Source: an uncultured Bacteroidales bacterium
GTDB lineage: Bacteria > Bacteroidota > Bacteroidia > Bacteroidales > WCHB1-69
Reading direction: 5' to 3'
DNA: 43,864 nucleotides
Assembly: GCA_905233745.1 (NCBI GenBank)
Contig: CAJODA010000009.1
Coordinates: 1-43,864 of the forward strand
The notes under the pieces: model-generated
What the model was told of the DNA's origin: nothing
Databases searched by the model: none
The model's input: only the letters and a program-made list of their open reading frames with translations
Shown: one piece after another, positions 27,481-43,737 of the stretch
Position numbering within the stretch: position 1 is the first letter of the stretch
Layout of the letters: each line of letters starts with the position of its first letter
Position numbers and translations under genes: made by a program

Positions 27481-28521
27481 TCATTCCTTCGGGAGTTCCC
27501 GGTTGAAGAGGGCTTTGACCATCTTGGCTTCGACACCTTCGGAATATATTTCCTCATCCGGTTCCGGTTTCAGCTTAATGATGATGGCATCGTTCCCCCC
27601 TTCTTTCAGTTCCACATAATCTACTATGGCGTCAGAGGCGGCAATCACACTGGGAGCGATTCTGGTAAAGATTGTGAAATCCGCCCAGGCAGCCACATCA
27701 TCGAGGGTTTCGTCAAACAGGATCTTTTTTCCATTTCGAAGGACAGCGGCAGTTTTCTCGCCTTTTTTCAAGAAATAGGCAATAAGGTCCTGATTGAGTT
27801 TCTGACCTTCCCCTTTCATGTACAAATAGACGTAAGTCTTCAACACGCGCTGGTCTTTGTATTCCACCGTAGAGCGGATTTTTCCCTTGGTGTCATAAAA
27901 ATCCCAACTGCCCACACGCTGACCTTTCAGATAGTTGCCTGTGGAAGACACTACGTTTTTGGGATAATAGGCGGTGCACTTGCCGTTCATCTTGCCATCC
28001 ACATAATCCTGCTCCAAACTCACTGACCCATCCAGATAGTATGTCTTACAGGTTCCGTTCAGCTTCCCGTCGCGATAATTCCGAACCTCCAGCAGGATGC
28101 CGGTTTCGGCGGAAAACACCTTCCATTCGCCAGTACGCTTGCCCATGGCATAGTTTTCAATGGCTATAAGAACGTCACTGTCAGAATAATACCTCCACTC
28201 TCCATCCTTAAGCTGATCGATAAACATGCCCTCTGAAGCCTTGTGCTCATTTTCATGATACATTACCGTTCTCACTTTATGCACACCCTGAACGAACTCT
28301 GTAGTGCTTTTCAGCTTTCCGTTAGCATGGTAATATTTGAATGTTCCGACAGGAACATCATCTTTGAACTGCCCTTCATAAACCTTTTTGCCCTTCTCCA
28401 TCTTTTTCCATATGCCCTGTTTACGTCCTTTAGCATCGGTTTTATTGATGAGAGCATCATCTTGCGCCACGGAAACGAGCACAACAGACAAACAGACCAG
28501 CAATGTCAGATACCTTCTCAT
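27481..28521 (-). CDS. Secreted MORN/YwqK-type repeat protein
   Basis: A 346-residue protein with a signal peptide (MRRYLTLLVCLSVVLVSVA). Residues about 25-215 hold roughly eight MORN-like units of the form G.W..Y...G.L....Y..GK.NG.., for example DGEWRYYSD and GKRTGEWKVFSAETG. The rest (220-346) is a non-repeat region with no motif I know. Such proteins are often labelled YwqK-family antitoxin, but no toxin is adjacent, so that label should not be read as function. It starts 14 bases after the stop of the HMA protein gene, so the two are in one transcript. Confidence 0.85.
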   Translation of the reverse strand: MRRYLTLLVCLSVVLVSVAQDDALINKTDAKGRKQGIWKKMEKGKKVYEGQFKDDVPVGTFKYYHANGKLKSTTEFVQGVHKVRTVMYHENEHKASEGMFIDQLKDGEWRYYSDSDVLIAIENYAMGKRTGEWKVFSAETGILLEVRNYRDGKLNGTCKTYYLDGSVSLEQDYVDGKMNGKCTAYYPKNVVSSTGNYLKGQRVGSWDFYDTKGKIRSTVEYKDQRVLKTYVYLYMKGEGQKLNQDLIAYFLKKGEKTAAVLRNGKKILFDETLDDVAAWADFTIFTRIAPSVIAASDAIVDYVELKEGGNDAIIIKLKPEPDEEIYSEGVEAKMVKALFNRELPKE

Positions 28522-28535
28522 AGAGGCAAAAGGAG

Positions 28536-29225
28536 TTATTTTTTATCAGTGTTAGCGTGGCCCTGGCATTTGTGTTCGCCGTTGGCTGCGCCTTGGCACT
28601 TGTGCTGACCTTCTGCGTGTTGGCATTTGTGCTCACCGTTGGCTGCACCTTGACACTTGTGCTGACCTTCCGCGTGCTGGCATTTGTGTTCGCCGTTGGC
28701 TGCACCTTGGCACTTGTGCTGACCTTCAGCGTGTTGGCACTTGTGTTCGCCGTTGGCTGCACCTTGGCACTTGTGCTGACCTTCAGCGTGCTGGCATTTG
28801 TGTTCGCCAGCAGCATGGCCTTGGCATTTGTGCTGGCCGTCGGCATGGCCTTGGCATTTGTGCTCCGGAGCGGCGGCATTGGCTGCATGGCCACAGGTTC
28901 CGCTATTCTTGCAACAAGCGGGCAGCTTCTCGCGGGCTGCGGGGTCGGCCTTCACGGCATCAGCATCATAACCCATTTTGCTGATTTCCTTGCGCAAATT
29001 ATCAGGATTTGTCTTTTTGGCATCGTAATTGATTGTGATTTTCGCCGTGCTGGCATCATACGTGTAATCTTTAACACCCTTGAAGAAAGGGACGTTATCT
29101 TTGAAACGGTCAATGCATTTCTGGCATTTGAGGGAAGCGTTGGTTTGGATGGTAACACTTTGCATTTGTGCGTATGCACCCAGTGTCACTACGGCCATCA
29201 AGGCCATCAGGATAAGTTTTTTCAT
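28536..29225 (-). CDS. Periplasmic HMA-domain protein with His/Cys repeat tail
   Basis: A 229-residue predicted metal-binding protein. Signal peptide MKKLILMALMAVVTLGAYA; a heavy-metal-associated (ferredoxin-like) domain at about 21-92 with CxxC C34-C37 (LKCQKC); a short Cys cluster C104, C105, C111 (CCKNSGTCGH); then residues 121-225, built from EHKCQ and QHKCQ units. Four exact copies of GEHKCQHAEGQHKCQGAAN span 140-215. In all there are eleven His-Lys-Cys motifs, sixteen Cys and many His, a metallothionein-like load for Cu(I), Zn or similar soft metals. Own promoter at 29307, directly downstream of a TonB-dependent receptor gene. The metal and the role (storage, buffering, detoxification) are inference. 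Confidence 0.85.
   Translation of the reverse strand: MKKLILMALMAVVTLGAYAQMQSVTIQTNASLKCQKCIDRFKDNVPFFKGVKDYTYDASTAKITINYDAKKTNPDNLRKEISKMGYDADAVKADPAAREKLPACCKNSGTCGHAANAAAPEHKCQGHADGQHKCQGHAAGEHKCQHAEGQHKCQGAANGEHKCQHAEGQHKCQGAANGEHKCQHAEGQHKCQGAANGEHKCQHAEGQHKCQGAANGEHKCQGHANTDKK
28581..28808 (-). repeat. Four tandem 57-bp repeats inside the HMA protein gene
   Basis: Four near-identical 57-bp units encode residues 140-215. Differences between units are few and mostly silent (for example CTG/TTG and GCA/GCC-type changes), which suggests recent duplication and possible copy-number variation. Being 57 bp, gain or loss keeps the frame. Confidence 0.88.
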
Positions 29226-29306: not shown

Positions 29307-29315
29307 GCAAAGATA
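29307..29315 (-). promoter_or_regulatory. Promoter -7 element of the HMA/MORN unit
   Basis: Perfect TATCTTTGC on the minus strand, 82 bases before the HMA protein start, in the 119-base gap after the TonB-dependent receptor gene. No TTG at 19 bases. Confidence 0.65.
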
Positions 29316-29344: not shown

Positions 29345-31642
29345 CTATTTCAAGATACAACGGACACCCAGATACCCCATGATGCCCGTAATCGGGGCAT
29401 ATACCACCGTGGCGTCGAAATTGTCGCCGAAGGGGTTCTGCGCATCCACAATAGGCTCAGACTGCTTGTAGTTGAGCAGATTCTCCGCACCCGCATAGAT
29501 TTCCCATCTGCGGAATTTCTTGGTTATTTGTGCATTGAGGATGCAATATGCGGGGGCTTGTTCCGGAAGCGAACTGGCGGGATTGGCAGACATGTCGGGC
29601 AGCGGCTGCGGACCGTTCACCTGCAATGTGACATTGAACTTCCACTTATCGTACTTTGTGCTGTAGTTGAGATTGACGAGCGCCTTGTGCGGGCTCATCA
29701 AATCCTTCTGCCGCATCTCTCCCTGACGCATATAACGCACATCGTTGTACCGGTAGGCCAGCAACACCTCAAAGCGTTTGAACGGCCACAAGGTCAATTC
29801 GAACTGTGCCGAATGCGAACGCGACCGGTTCCCGTAACCATTGTAATCCCCGTTGAGGGCATAATAATGTATCTCGTGGACATTCTGATCCAGATCCACA
29901 ATCATCTGCTGCAGAAAATGCGTGTAGAAATAATCAACCGCCACAGAAGCCTTTCCTCCCGGCATATCGAACTGGTACACCATACTGGCTCCGGCATTCC
30001 AGGCCTCCTCAGGCTTCGGATGACCATCGAAGCAAATGCTGCGGGAAGAAAACAGCAACGACTGATTCTCGGTGAAGAAGTGGGCATTGCGGTAACCTTT
30101 ACCCGCCGAAGCACGCACGGACAAATCCTTGGTCGCCTGCCATTTGAGATGCACGCGAGGGGTCCAGAAGAGTTGATTGATGCTTTCCCAGTTGTTGGAC
30201 TGGGTTTTGTCGCGAACCATATTGTAGTCGAGACGCATACCGGCCATCAGCACCAGTTTGGGGTCAATGATGTAAGCATATTCGGCGAAAACGCCAGGAA
30301 TCAGATCATGATGATGGGGTCTGGCGTAATCATACGTATTGACAAGGTATCCACTATGGTAATACTCATTCAGGCAATCAAACTGCAAACTGCCCCCCGC
30401 CGTCAGTTTATGACGTTCGTTACTTCCGAATTTATTGGAATACAACACATTCGCATAGACGCTTTGCTGATTTCCCCGATAATCCTTGTTCTGTCCATAT
30501 TGTGAATTGAGCCAATGTCCCGTATAGGAAACAATCGTCCCGATGCTCTCATGTTCGCCATTCAGCAAGAAACCGTTCTTGGTGATGGCATCCACCCGCT
30601 TGTTGTCGGCGGTAAACCCATACGGCATGTCTATCAGCAGATACGGACTGTTGGGTTTGAAAGCCATCTGCCCGCCAAAACGGTTGTCCCACACAAAATC
30701 GACCATTGTGCGACCTTCCACCTTGGGAGATTTATAATCCCAGCGGTTCATCACATTGACCTGACGACTGCGCGGCACGTCCATGAAGCCGTCCTTATTC
30801 ATGTCCATCTTCGCAAACTGATCGGCCAGAAAAACCAGAAAATTGGTACTTGCATTCTCCCCTTTTCCCACAGGAACGCGCGTATTCATAGCCAATTCGC
30901 CTTTGCCCATCGAATTGGCGTAAAAGTTCATAAAGAAACGCTCCAGGTTAGTTTCCGGTTTCTTGTAATCCACATTGATCTGCCCCGTGATGGCCTCAAA
31001 GCCGTTCACCACAGAAGAGGTACCTTTTGACAGGCTGATAGACTCCATCCAAGAGCCGGGCACAAAGCCGAGACCGAATTGGTGGGCGAGCAGGCGTATA
31101 TAGGGAACATTCTCCAGCAGGATCTGGGAATAGACTCCCGCAAGTCCAAGCATGGAGATCTGGCGGGCTCCGCTCACCGCGTCAGGGAATTCCGAATCGA
31201 TAGCCACGCTGCTTTCAAAACTCTCTGCCAGATTGCAGCAGGCGGCGCGGCGCAAGCCCTGTTGAGTGATGACGGTTGTCAAGATGGGTTGTGTGGAGAT
31301 GAAAGAGCCGTCGCGCCCCACCACACTCACTTCCGCCAAGGAATGGGCGTGCGACAGGAACACAGTAATCTCTTGCTGCGTGCGGTCTATACGAAATGTG
31401 TCGGGTTGATATGTTGGGAAGGAGATTAGCAGCGAGTCGGATTTGGCGCGGGGCAAAGAAAACTCACCGTTGGCATCCGAATGCGTGCCCACGGAGGTGT
31501 GCAACCACTGGACCGCAGCGGACGTCACCGCTATGGTGTCACCCTGTTCATTGATTTCCAGCACTCTGCCCCGCAGGTTTTGTGCGCCAGCAAACGTGCA
31601 AACCAATGAAAAAAACAATAAAACAAAAAATCTTTTCCCCAT
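29345..31642 (-). CDS. TonB-dependent receptor, probable metal or siderophore type
   Basis: A 765-residue outer-membrane receptor. The start at 31642 (MGKRFFVLLFFSLVCTFAGA) is used because it gives a proper signal peptide. A carboxypeptidase-regulatory-like domain (about 22-105) is followed by a plug (about 115-225) with LAESFESSVAIDSEFPDAVS and GARQISMLGLAG, and a 22-strand barrel with SKGTSSVVNGFEAITGQINV at the plug end. This plug style, with no SusD partner, is that of BtuB/FecA-like receptors. The HMA protein gene is directly downstream, which hints at a metal or metal complex as substrate. Upstream is the acyl-CoA ligase gene (63-base gap). Confidence 0.9.
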   Translation of the reverse strand: MGKRFFVLLFFSLVCTFAGAQNLRGRVLEINEQGDTIAVTSAAVQWLHTSVGTHSDANGEFSLPRAKSDSLLISFPTYQPDTFRIDRTQQEITVFLSHAHSLAEVSVVGRDGSFISTQPILTTVITQQGLRRAACCNLAESFESSVAIDSEFPDAVSGARQISMLGLAGVYSQILLENVPYIRLLAHQFGLGFVPGSWMESISLSKGTSSVVNGFEAITGQINVDYKKPETNLERFFMNFYANSMGKGELAMNTRVPVGKGENASTNFLVFLADQFAKMDMNKDGFMDVPRSRQVNVMNRWDYKSPKVEGRTMVDFVWDNRFGGQMAFKPNSPYLLIDMPYGFTADNKRVDAITKNGFLLNGEHESIGTIVSYTGHWLNSQYGQNKDYRGNQQSVYANVLYSNKFGSNERHKLTAGGSLQFDCLNEYYHSGYLVNTYDYARPHHHDLIPGVFAEYAYIIDPKLVLMAGMRLDYNMVRDKTQSNNWESINQLFWTPRVHLKWQATKDLSVRASAGKGYRNAHFFTENQSLLFSSRSICFDGHPKPEEAWNAGASMVYQFDMPGGKASVAVDYFYTHFLQQMIVDLDQNVHEIHYYALNGDYNGYGNRSRSHSAQFELTLWPFKRFEVLLAYRYNDVRYMRQGEMRQKDLMSPHKALVNLNYSTKYDKWKFNVTLQVNGPQPLPDMSANPASSLPEQAPAYCILNAQITKKFRRWEIYAGAENLLNYKQSEPIVDAQNPFGDNFDATVVYAPITGIMGYLGVRCILK

Positions 31643-31685
31643 AATCCAAATCACCTGTTTAATCCCTTTTACTTCATGCTCCCTG

Positions 31686-31707
31686 GGACGCATGATTATG
31701 CGTCTCT
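31686..31707. repeat. Copy of the GAGACG palindrome family
   Basis: GGGACGCAT, centre GATT, ATGCGTCTC: arms are complementary except for the outermost position. The right flank continues TAC as in the other copies. The TAG stop codon of the acyl-CoA ligase (31706-31708 on the minus strand) lies in the right arm. Confidence 0.75.
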
Positions 31708-34480: not shown

Positions 34481-34534
34481 GTTCGTAAGGTTCGTAAGGT
34501 TTGTAAAGTTTGTAAAGTTTGTAAAGTTTGTAAA
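34481..34534. repeat. Six tandem 9-bp repeats before the GT2 gene
   Basis: Two copies of GTTCGTAAG then four of GTTTGTAAA, at 34481, 34490, 34499, 34508, 34517 and 34526. It begins 10 bases upstream of the GT2 start codon, in the 108-base gap after DUF4199. Confidence 0.85.
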
Positions 34535-34579
34535 ATTTAAAAGAGGAAAGGATTAATGGCTAACGGCCAAATATCGTTC

Positions 34580-42296: not shown

Positions 42297-42309
42297 AAAG
42301 TTGAGAGTT

Positions 42310-42363
42310 AATAGATAATAGATAATAGATAATAGATAATAGATAATAGATAATAGATAATAG
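42310..42363. repeat. 7-bp tandem repeat between dnaE and the NfeD gene
   Basis: Seven perfect copies of AATAGAT (42310-42358) plus a partial eighth. It ends 15 bases before the NfeD-family start codon. Confidence 0.9.
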
Positions 42364-42378
42364 TTTATAGATATTGAG

Positions 42379-43737
42379 ATGATAAAAAAACTTCAAAATA
42401 TTATATTGTTTTTTGCCTGCTGGTCGGCCATTTTGACTGTTTCTGCGCAGCAGAAGGTTTATTATTATGCGATTGACGACAACATTTCCAAGCCGGCGTT
42501 GCGGTTGACAGAGCGAGCGGTGAAGGATGCCACGGAGATGAAAGCCGACTATATCCTGTTGGAGTTGAACACATTCGGTGGTGAATTGGATGCGGCGGAC
42601 AAGATCAGGACGCTCCTACTGAACGCGCCCATGCCCACGATGGTGTTCATCAACAACAATGCAGCCTCCGCCGGCGCGCTGATCGCCATTGCCTGCGACA
42701 GCATCTACATGGCCTCCGGCGCCTCCATGGGTGCCGCTTCTGTGGTCAACCAAAACGGCGAAGTCCTTCCCGACAAGTACCAATCTTACATGCGTTCGCT
42801 GATGCGGGCGACTGCCGAGAAGAACCATCGGAATCCCGACATTGCCCAAGCCATGGTGGACCCCGACGTGGAAGTGAAAGGGGTTAGCGAGAAAGGCAAG
42901 GTGCTAACCTTCACGACAGAAGAGGCCATGGCAAACGGATTCTGCGAAGGGAAAGCGGAAAGTCGCGAAGAGGTTCTCCAGTCTGCCGGCCTAGGCCGGC
43001 ACAATCTTGTGGAGCAAAACCTTTCTTGGATAGACAAGTTCATCAACTTCCTTGTTAATCCGGTTGTCAGCGGCATCCTCATCATGTGCATCGTCGGCGG
43101 TCTCTATTTCGAATTGCAGTCACCGGGATTAGGACTACCCAGCATCATCGCCCTGATTGGTGCACTGCTATTCTTTGCCCCTCACTATTTGGAAGGACTT
43201 GCCCAGCACTGGGAGATACTGATATTTTTGGCAGGAGTAGTGTTGCTGATGTTGGAGATCTTCGTCATTCCCGGCTTCGGGGTAGCGGGAATTTCCGGTA
43301 TCATCCTCATATTTGCCGCATTTATCCTGACCATGGTTTTCAATGTGGGCTTCAAGTTCAATTTCAACCCCAGTTTGGACGCCGCCACGCAGATAGGCAC
43401 CAGCGCGCTCATCGTCGTAATCAGCACAACCGCCGGGTTCTTCCTGTCGTTGTGGCTGGGCAAGAAACTCATCACGGCCGACACCCGGTTCGGCAGTCTG
43501 GCGCTGAAAACGGAGCTGGACACCAGCCACGGCTTCTCCGCCCAGGACATGCGCATGCAGCAATACGTGGGCAAGGAAGGCGTTGCAGCCACCTTCATGC
43601 GTCCTGCCGGCAAAATCAACATTGACGGCGAGATTCTGGAGGCCACCTCCGAGCACGGCCTCATTGACAAAGGAACCGATATTGTAGTGGTGAAATTCGA
43701 GAATGCACAACTGGTAGTGAAAAAGGGCAAGGGATGA
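42379..43737 (+). CDS. NfeD-family membrane serine protease
   Basis: A 452-residue membrane protein linked in other species to stomatin-like partners and membrane quality control. After a signal sequence (MIKKLQNIILFFACWSAILTVSA) there is a ClpP-like Ser/Lys protease domain (about 26-215) with TFGGELDAAD, nucleophile S97 (NNNAASAGALIAIACDS) and a Lys candidate K148 (MRATAEKNHR). Four membrane helices lie at about 230-370, and a soluble NfeD OB-fold (about 385-452) has YVGKEGVAATFMRPAGKINI. No stomatin/SPFH gene is in the window. Usual length for the long form. Confidence 0.93.
   Translation: MIKKLQNIILFFACWSAILTVSAQQKVYYYAIDDNISKPALRLTERAVKDATEMKADYILLELNTFGGELDAADKIRTLLLNAPMPTMVFINNNAASAGALIAIACDSIYMASGASMGAASVVNQNGEVLPDKYQSYMRSLMRATAEKNHRNPDIAQAMVDPDVEVKGVSEKGKVLTFTTEEAMANGFCEGKAESREEVLQSAGLGRHNLVEQNLSWIDKFINFLVNPVVSGILIMCIVGGLYFELQSPGLGLPSIIALIGALLFFAPHYLEGLAQHWEILIFLAGVVLLMLEIFVIPGFGVAGISGIILIFAAFILTMVFNVGFKFNFNPSLDAATQIGTSALIVVISTTAGFFLSLWLGKKLITADTRFGSLALKTELDTSHGFSAQDMRMQQYVGKEGVAATFMRPAGKINIDGEILEATSEHGLIDKGTDIVVVKFENAQLVVKKGKG

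Follow-up and report, generated by a model that had tools for sequence, protein, structure and literature searches.

Several known metal-handling systems come close to the protein described here, and each matches it in part. CopZ and MerP are single-HMA chaperones. SilE, as described in excerpts of PMC5008109, is disordered without metal and carries His and Met motifs. The excerpted accounts of plant HMA4 (PMC6394093, PMC6255694) describe a fast-evolving C-terminal extension rich in Cys pairs and His, with di-Cys motifs of nanomolar Zn affinity and, in BjHMA4, a region of four Cys-pair repeats by which tolerance to Cd is increased. OprC and CrtA are copper TonB-dependent transporters (PMC12914433, PMC8610252); in PMC12914433, the cruR-crtA-bp2921 operon starts with a small gene and CrtA orthologs are without conserved Cys. 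Finally, the excerpts of PMC11213822 report periplasmic CopZ-like proteins of Bizionia argentinensis that combine a signal peptide with an HMA domain, one of them encoded together with a Cu ATPase and an RND subunit.

The window, the whole stretch of DNA analyzed here, comprises 43,864 nt of contig CAJODA010000009.1 (GCA_905233745.1), and its genome is labeled G000 (completeness 100, contamination 0.74). It encodes a protein that shares the HMA fold and CxxC motif with CopZ and MerP but differs from both in having an export signal, a C-terminal Cys pair, and a long Cys/His tail. Like SilE and PcoE as excerpted in PMC5008109, the tail, modeled at low confidence, is periplasmic, consists of metal-ligand repeats, and likely has multi-ion capacity; however, the ligands of SilE are His and Met, whereas those of the window tail are Cys and His without Met. 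The plant HMA4 extension resembles the tail by description, not by unit sequence, and is a cytosolic part of a P1B ATPase rather than of a secreted bacterial chaperone. The Bizionia proteins (PMC11213822) are likewise from Bacteroidota and have a signal peptide and an HMA domain; this likeness too is by description, and the excerpts do not mention a Cys/His tail. The receptor encoded upstream resembles OprC and CrtA as a TonB receptor in a metal operon, but it has an invariant plug di-Cys, and its partner is an HMA protein, not the PepSY_TM protein given in the excerpts of PMC12914433. Among the literature matches listed (titles, abstract starts, and passages), no treatment of the receptor-HMA pair or of the tail was found.

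An Exported HMA Protein with a Cys/His-Rich Tail

The HMA-tail gene (28536..29225) lies on the reverse strand, as do all features of the locus given below, and encodes 229 aa made up of an export signal, an HMA domain, an LPACC motif, and a Cys/His-rich repeat tail. The signal peptide (aa 1-19, MKKLILMALMAVVTLGAYA; 29169..29225), read by eye and modeled as a helix at residues 3-14, has no lipobox Cys. Pfam profile PF00403 matches aa 32-87 (28965..29132) at 35.6 bits against a gathering cut-off of 24.8, placing the domain in this family. Both readings bear out the exported protein with a single HMA domain proposed in the earlier note. The CxxC metal motif (C34, C37; 29115..29126) is invariant across 55 aligned sequences (the window and 54 relatives), and LPACC (aa 101-105; 28911..28925), modeled with helices at 95-99 and 103-106, places the Cys pair C104-C105 directly behind the HMA fold. 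The remaining 124 aa (28539..28910) form the tail, whose 12 Cys and 19 His exceed the background of the other long ORFs of the window (1.5% Cys, 2.3% His; binomial 3e-7 and 7e-11) and which has no Met. The whole protein contains the 16 Cys and 11 HKC motifs counted previously, and TRF recovers the 57-bp tandem array at 28563..28808 (4.3 copies of QHAEGQHKCQGAANGEHKC, 92% match). The previously reported tail of 105 residues covers about the repeat part and falls short of the full 124 aa. A 230-aa ORF that overlaps the gene on the opposite strand is taken as a by-product of the stop-free repeat.

The AlphaFold2 model, computed from the same 55 sequences, has a mean pLDDT of 93-98 per block of ten over aa 21-100, up to 80 in the block holding LPACC, and about 39-53 per block in the tail past aa 110. 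The best Foldseek match is CopZ (2qif; TMt 0.85, E 7.6e-4), which identifies an HMA fold with CxxC. Copper HMA domains make up most of the further matches, and the rows listed also include ZiaA (Zn) and MerP; a sequence search of solved structures likewise returns mostly copper HMA domains plus a zinc-transporting ATPase. Such model-based and structural matches do not fix the metal identity. The metal motifs of HMA loops include the Met of MxCxxC and the Asp of Zn types; the loop of the window protein has neither.

Membership in named families was examined by profile. The protein scores 32.1 bits with the MerP model TIGR02052 (cut-off 92.55) and 27.5 bits with the CopZ model NF033795 (cut-off 91), and CopZ is cytoplasmic whereas the window protein carries an export signal. 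A Pfam scan of five window ORFs gave no mer-type match, and no metallothionein model in Pfam or NCBIfam matched at E ≤ 0.001. At 229 aa, with HMA the only domain found, the protein is no P1B ATPase. Its tail, with 19 His, 12 Cys, and 0 Met, is not of the His/Met repeat type of SilE/PcoE, and SilE presumably lacks an HMA domain. The protein, a member of none of these families by the tests made, may combine a CopZ-like head with a sponge that acts as SilE or a metallothionein does.

Distribution and Forms of the Tail

Homologs in the genus and family were sought with aa 1-114 of the window protein. G-numbers denote the genomes of the genus (n = 40, G000 among them) and L-numbers the fetched loci or records; the relatives read are the best 80 of 195 from a scan of named genome contigs, a set that overlaps the 40 genus genomes and is not independent of them. 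The gene is matched in 34 of the 40 genus genomes (22/23 where completeness is ≥90% and contamination ≤5%) and in 52 of 58 family genomes at least 90% complete, 24 of which belong to the same genus. The best 80 of 195 relatives are nearly all metagenome bins or uncultured Bacteroidales, Bacteroidetes, or Bacteroidota, and their sources include rumen and other ruminant gut, horse faeces, lake, and groundwater. The exceptions are L115 (a Flavobacteriales bin), L087 (a strain, not a bin), and L111, labeled Alphaproteobacteria but probably mislabeled, because its neighbor families are the same as in Bacteroidales bin L109.

Among these best 80 of 195, PxCC stands behind the HMA fold in 79. What follows it varies: 23/80 end within 9 aa of the CC pair, 41/80 have at least 4 Cys in the tail, and 72/80 have no tail Met. 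Within the genus, where the tail was counted on the longest copy per genome and at least 4 tail Cys define a tailed protein, 32 of 34 genomes are tailed (exceptions G011 and G035), so the fusion called unusual in the earlier note is the common form here. No tail Met occurs in 31 of these 34 longest copies. Their tails span 6-164 aa (the 156 aa of G032 counts an out-of-frame part), and the core is never lost. Two kinds of unit make up the tails, EHKCQ-type and CGNH/CAGHQDGKS-type; both supply Cys and His, so it is the Cys/His content that is kept and not the unit sequence. A search for HKC arrays in the genus (E ≤ 1e-6) gave 21 matches in 15/40 genomes, all inside the HMA-tail gene; it was not exhaustive, since it missed the known HKC tails of G018, G019, G021, and G027. 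Unit number does change between related species, with 11 H[KQ]C motifs in G000, 14 in G014, and 13 in G002; the variation predicted between strains is thus seen in a comparison of species. Elsewhere in Bacteroidota, relatives often stop soon after LPxCC and lie behind a TonB receptor, and the tail therefore looks like a later addition. The spread of the short form, rather than a rooted tree, points to it as the ancestral state. Together the tails offer a natural series, from 0 to 16 Cys on a related core, in which repeat number can be set against metal capacity.

Constraint on the Repeat Units

Codon changes among repeat units were compared in 31 genes, of which the 12 with a clear period were counted (11 of them with HKC-type tails, so that the other tail type is hardly covered); 19 genes lacked a period, and L066 was dropped beforehand. 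The four clean 19-aa units of the window differ at 7 bases, all at silent third positions, an outcome with a chance of ∼6e-6 under random change. pN is below pS in each of the 12 genes. In the pooled units, Cys/His codons give a pS of 0.76, a pN of 0.037, and a pN/pS of 0.049, as compared to 0.54, 0.064, and 0.118 for the other codons; the units were chosen by protein similarity, a choice that lowers pN. The combination of near-saturated pS with a conserved protein goes beyond what this bias alone would give, so most of the units are old and maintained by selection. A contribution from gene conversion is possible. The expansion described earlier as recent is accordingly doubtful, given the seven silent differences. 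Judged from codon changes, selection maintains the tail at the protein level wherever a period allowed the comparison.

These results bear on the explanation that the tail arose by neutral slippage of a GC-rich repeat that stays in frame by chance, or is an assembly artefact of metagenome bins. Such an origin could account for the differences in unit number between species and for an array that is out of frame in one bin (L013/L066, both G032); moreover, most tails (19 of 31) have no clear period and fall outside the constraint count. However, 7 of 7 silent bases in the window units (∼6e-6 by chance, with the caveat that unit choice by protein similarity lowers pN), different unit sequences that supply the same ligand residues, and the recurrence of a tail in 32/34 genomes make it highly improbable. 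Neutral expansion was rejected on the silent-change pattern. The earlier note had regarded HMA homologs without a tail and without a metal response as pointing to a neutral repeat; homologs without a tail exist (the 23/80 ending within 9 aa of CC among the best 80 of 195, 18 of the 23 beside a receptor), but the tail is constrained where it could be compared, so neutral expansion is not the better reading. The proposal that expansion preserves the frame holds for most arrays, with one of 30 loci read carrying an out-of-frame array. In that locus (L066, 8510-8690), a single metagenome bin, an HKC-type array leaves the frame part way, either as a real change or as an assembly error.

The TonB-Dependent Receptor Partner

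Directly upstream of the HMA-tail gene lies a TonB-dependent receptor (29345..31693, Pfam), whose start is more likely near 31642 because many relatives align from about residue 18-37. A di-Cys, C152-C153 (31235..31240), falls within its Plug-profile match (135-237). C152, C153, and H515 are invariant in 46/46 aligned receptors, and M216 is present in 45/46. An OprC-type copper receptor was considered and rejected; the CxxxM/HxM motif, taken from excerpts of PMC11213822, is absent from the window receptor.

The receptor occurs in 34/40 genus genomes. Both genes are found in 32, the HMA gene only in 2 (G009 and G030, which have the tailed gene and no receptor at E ≤ 1e-100), the receptor only in 2 (G029, G039), and neither in 4, all under 90% complete. 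Among the best 80 of 195 relatives, 41 have the receptor directly upstream on the same strand and 39 have no adjacent complete receptor. Counting the 71 of these loci with >2.6 kb of upstream sequence, the receptor is adjacent in 41 and no complete receptor is adjacent in 30; L082 has an incomplete receptor upstream, and in 4 further best-80 loci a receptor lies elsewhere in the locus. For the short forms the receptor is adjacent in 18/23. Gene order and co-occurrence thus establish the link between the receptor and HMA genes. With CxxC, PxCC, and an upstream TonB receptor, the window has every feature of the receptor-linked HMA family of Bacteroidota defined here.

The receptor and the tail are separable. 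In G011, G012, G018, G019, and G027, the receptor adjoins a tailless copy of 117-120 aa, and in 4 of these genomes the tailed copy is on another contig; G015 is a further two-copy genome, its second copy being L130. The tail is therefore not needed beside the receptor, and because the tailed gene lies elsewhere in part of the genus, the tailed form can act apart from it. The arrangement suggests a division of labor, with a short form for the receptor and a tailed form for buffering. In the window's clade, where the tailed gene adjoins the receptor, both tasks may fall to a single protein. The 119-bp gap between the two genes in the window holds TATCTTTG (29308..29315), which reads as a Bacteroidota-type -7 box, for which we take TAnnTTTG to be the consensus. 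This consensus occurs upstream of the gene in 21/75 loci examined versus 3.6 expected from single-base shuffles; it is present in L044, L045, and L046 and absent in L048, L063, and L064. Given the box in the gap, the HMA-tail gene of the window's clade may also be transcribed alone.

In 17 of the best 80 of 195 loci (L072, L075, L078, L079, L081, L083, L084, L085, L087, L109, L111, L116, L117, L120-L123), the receptor follows a gene for a small, Cys-rich protein that begins with a hydrophobic stretch. Bernardetia sp. Wsw4-3y2 (Cytophagales) has the same order: small Cys-rich protein, receptor with CC, HMA protein with LPACC. The likeness of the small protein to CruR of Bordetella, as described in excerpts of PMC12914433, is positional only. 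Three examples gave no NCBIfam match and no convincing Pfam match, and the gene was left unnamed.

Besides the receptor (41 loci), the families within 1.2 kb among the best 80 of 195 are SulP (10 loci), F9 (7), F17 (5), and others in at most 4 loci each. In the 10 SulP loci the transporter is directly upstream of the HMA gene and the receptor is absent there; an eleventh has it slightly further off. SulP lies upstream of the tailed gene, next to it or close by, in L049, L050, L055-L058, L062, L065, L066, L074, and L077, and the one scanned has PF00916 and STAS. These neighbors bear on a regulatory or assembly role, under which some periplasmic enzyme or sensor would receive its metal from the HMA module and the tail would adjust stability or interaction, storage being secondary. 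A chaperone with a single CxxC normally hands on one ion, which fits such a role, as do a CC pair far more widespread than the tail (79/80, best 80 of 195) and tails of 6-164 aa in the genus on a core that is kept. However, the neighbor families recur only in small groups (SulP 10, F9 7, F17 5 loci) and none is shown to be a metal enzyme, and constraint on the Cys/His codons of the tail is no weaker than on the rest (pN/pS 0.049 versus 0.118). We consider this role improbable.

Three further loci are recorded here. In the Flavobacteriales bin L115, at 329-2049 past the HMA match start, a receptor, an HMA gene, an ORF that resembles a fusion of HMA with thioredoxin, and a 351-aa ORF containing His stand in a row. 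L119, an outlying relative, has extra Cys in its loop as well as LDACC; the ORF ahead of it resembles a P-type metal ATPase. Downstream of the window gene, a MORN_2-repeat protein is encoded at 27481-28521; among the best 80 of 195 loci it is matched there in L044 only (84%) and, weakly (30%) and further off, in L102.

Metal Genes of the Genome and Genus

Across the whole G000 genome, no HMA domain besides that of the window gene was found at E ≤ 0.001, and no P1B ATPase at E ≤ 1e-10 in a search that was positive in 14/14 controls. Two CDF exporters are present. No RND pump exceeds the heavy-metal cut-off; CzcA/CusA efflux, with a best score of 425.6 bits against 701.45, was not counted for G000, and G023 is the only member of the genus to pass that cut-off. 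No VKOR match was found in G000 by a search positive in only 3/14 controls. P1B ATPases occur in 23/40 genus genomes. Those of sister genomes G028 and G030 belong to the Cd family (TIGR01512) and score below the Cu cut-off, and this assignment in both examples fits Zn/Cd as well as Cu. Beside the sister P1B genes are a Fur-family regulator in L138 (PF01475, above cut-off) and a Fur-like ORF in L135 that is under every NCBIfam cut-off.

Among gene-bearing genomes, HKC tails occur in 14/15 without P1B versus 5/19 with P1B (Fisher p 1e-4), and the median number of tail Cys is 10 versus 6 (MWU p 0.002; 34 genus genomes). On a tree from a 111-column alignment, P1B state changes just 4 times and tail type 3 times, and independent pairs give no signal (3 pairs on starred branches; p 1 by sign test). 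Because the raw association disappears once the tree is taken into account, the idea that tails grew for lack of P1B was rejected. With 3-4 events behind it, the tie between a missing ATPase and a long tail proves nothing and is kept as a lead, not evidence.

HMA-CC modules are also found among efflux genes beyond the genus. A tblastn search of plasmid records with a short relative returned 13 records, none covering 80% of the query, of which six were opened. On a Pontibacter plasmid, an HMA protein with LPGCC lies amid RND, SCO, four-helix copper-binding, and P-type ATPase genes; in Prevotella oral taxon 299, HMA with LPGCC follows RND, OEP, and CusB/HMBD-type genes; in Haliscomenobacter, an HMA protein with a nearby CC (HGCC) precedes RND genes; and in a Flavobacterium record the match falls within a DUF3347 gene near a CusA/CzcA-family pump. 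On a Parabacteroides distasonis plasmid (L145, 2633-4258), an RND adaptor ends in an HMA-like stretch with LPACC. The occurrence of the module with efflux genes favors a soft-metal setting and weakens the import direction.

This evidence can be read in terms of a detoxification sponge independent of the receptor, in which the tail chelates toxic Cd, Zn, or Cu in the periplasm like a metallothionein, substituting for an absent P1B exporter, and the receptor link is inherited but no longer relevant. The raw tail-P1B association (14/15 versus 5/19; median 10 versus 6), the Cd-family P1B of the two sister genomes, the 4 genomes with the tailed copy on a different contig from the receptor, and the LPxCC relatives that adjoin efflux genes all speak for it. 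The last of these, which show the module in export, weigh slightly against the import reading and in favor of this alternative. However, the tree has only 4 P1B-state and 3 tail-type changes, and independent pairs give no signal; HKC tails also occur in P1B-bearing G001, G020, G021, G027, and G032; in G011, which has no P1B, no tailed copy was found; and receptor and tailed gene are adjacent in the window's clade. On balance, receptor-independent detoxification appears somewhat unlikely.

Proposed Function

Our preferred reading, to which we assign a probability of about 0.48, is that the window protein receives and buffers a soft metal in the periplasm, in concert with the TonB-dependent receptor. 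By this reading the receptor would import a soft metal, most likely Cu(I) and next Zn(II), and its plug Cys pair would pass the metal to the CxxC of the HMA domain. The LPxCC pair and the tail would then take it from CxxC, so that one chaperone could hold several ions, with tail length setting the capacity. A chaperone buffered in this way would limit free metal in a cell without P1B exporters. With its selected Cys and His, the tail probably takes up metal in the periplasm. We infer the metal, its binding, and the direction of flow, with import-storage and capture-detoxification as the candidate modes and Cu(I), Zn, or Cd as the candidate metals. The observation of the earlier note is confirmed and its interpretation partly supported; it did not mention the TonB receptor with its di-Cys, the LPxCC pair, or the lack of P1B ATPases and of any second HMA domain in this genome.

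A broader proposal would make this a thiol-based outer-membrane import line in Bacteroidota, running from the plug di-Cys via Cu(I) or Zn to a dedicated HMA chaperone, with the gut and rumen tail as a selected Cys/His storage polymer replacing P1B efflux and unit copy number as the capacity dial; in this full form it is unlikely. Bacteroidales, a Flavobacteriales bin, and a Cytophagales isolate all pair a secreted HMA protein with a receptor that has the invariant plug di-Cys. This pairing gives a concrete, testable metal route, and copper and zinc uptake and holding in gut Bacteroidota seems little studied. The P1B-free, single-HMA genome G000 is a test case for buffering instead of efflux.

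Other Repeat Arrays in the Window

Two further arrays were found by TRF. A nine-base array of GTTTGTAAA (34481-34538, 6.4 copies) lies between a glycosyltransferase-like ORF and a 296-aa ORF. A seven-base TAATAGA array (42309-42373, 9.3 copies) lies behind a 1271-aa ORF and ends just before the ATG of a 452-aa ORF (42379-43737), the expression of which could be altered by the number of units.
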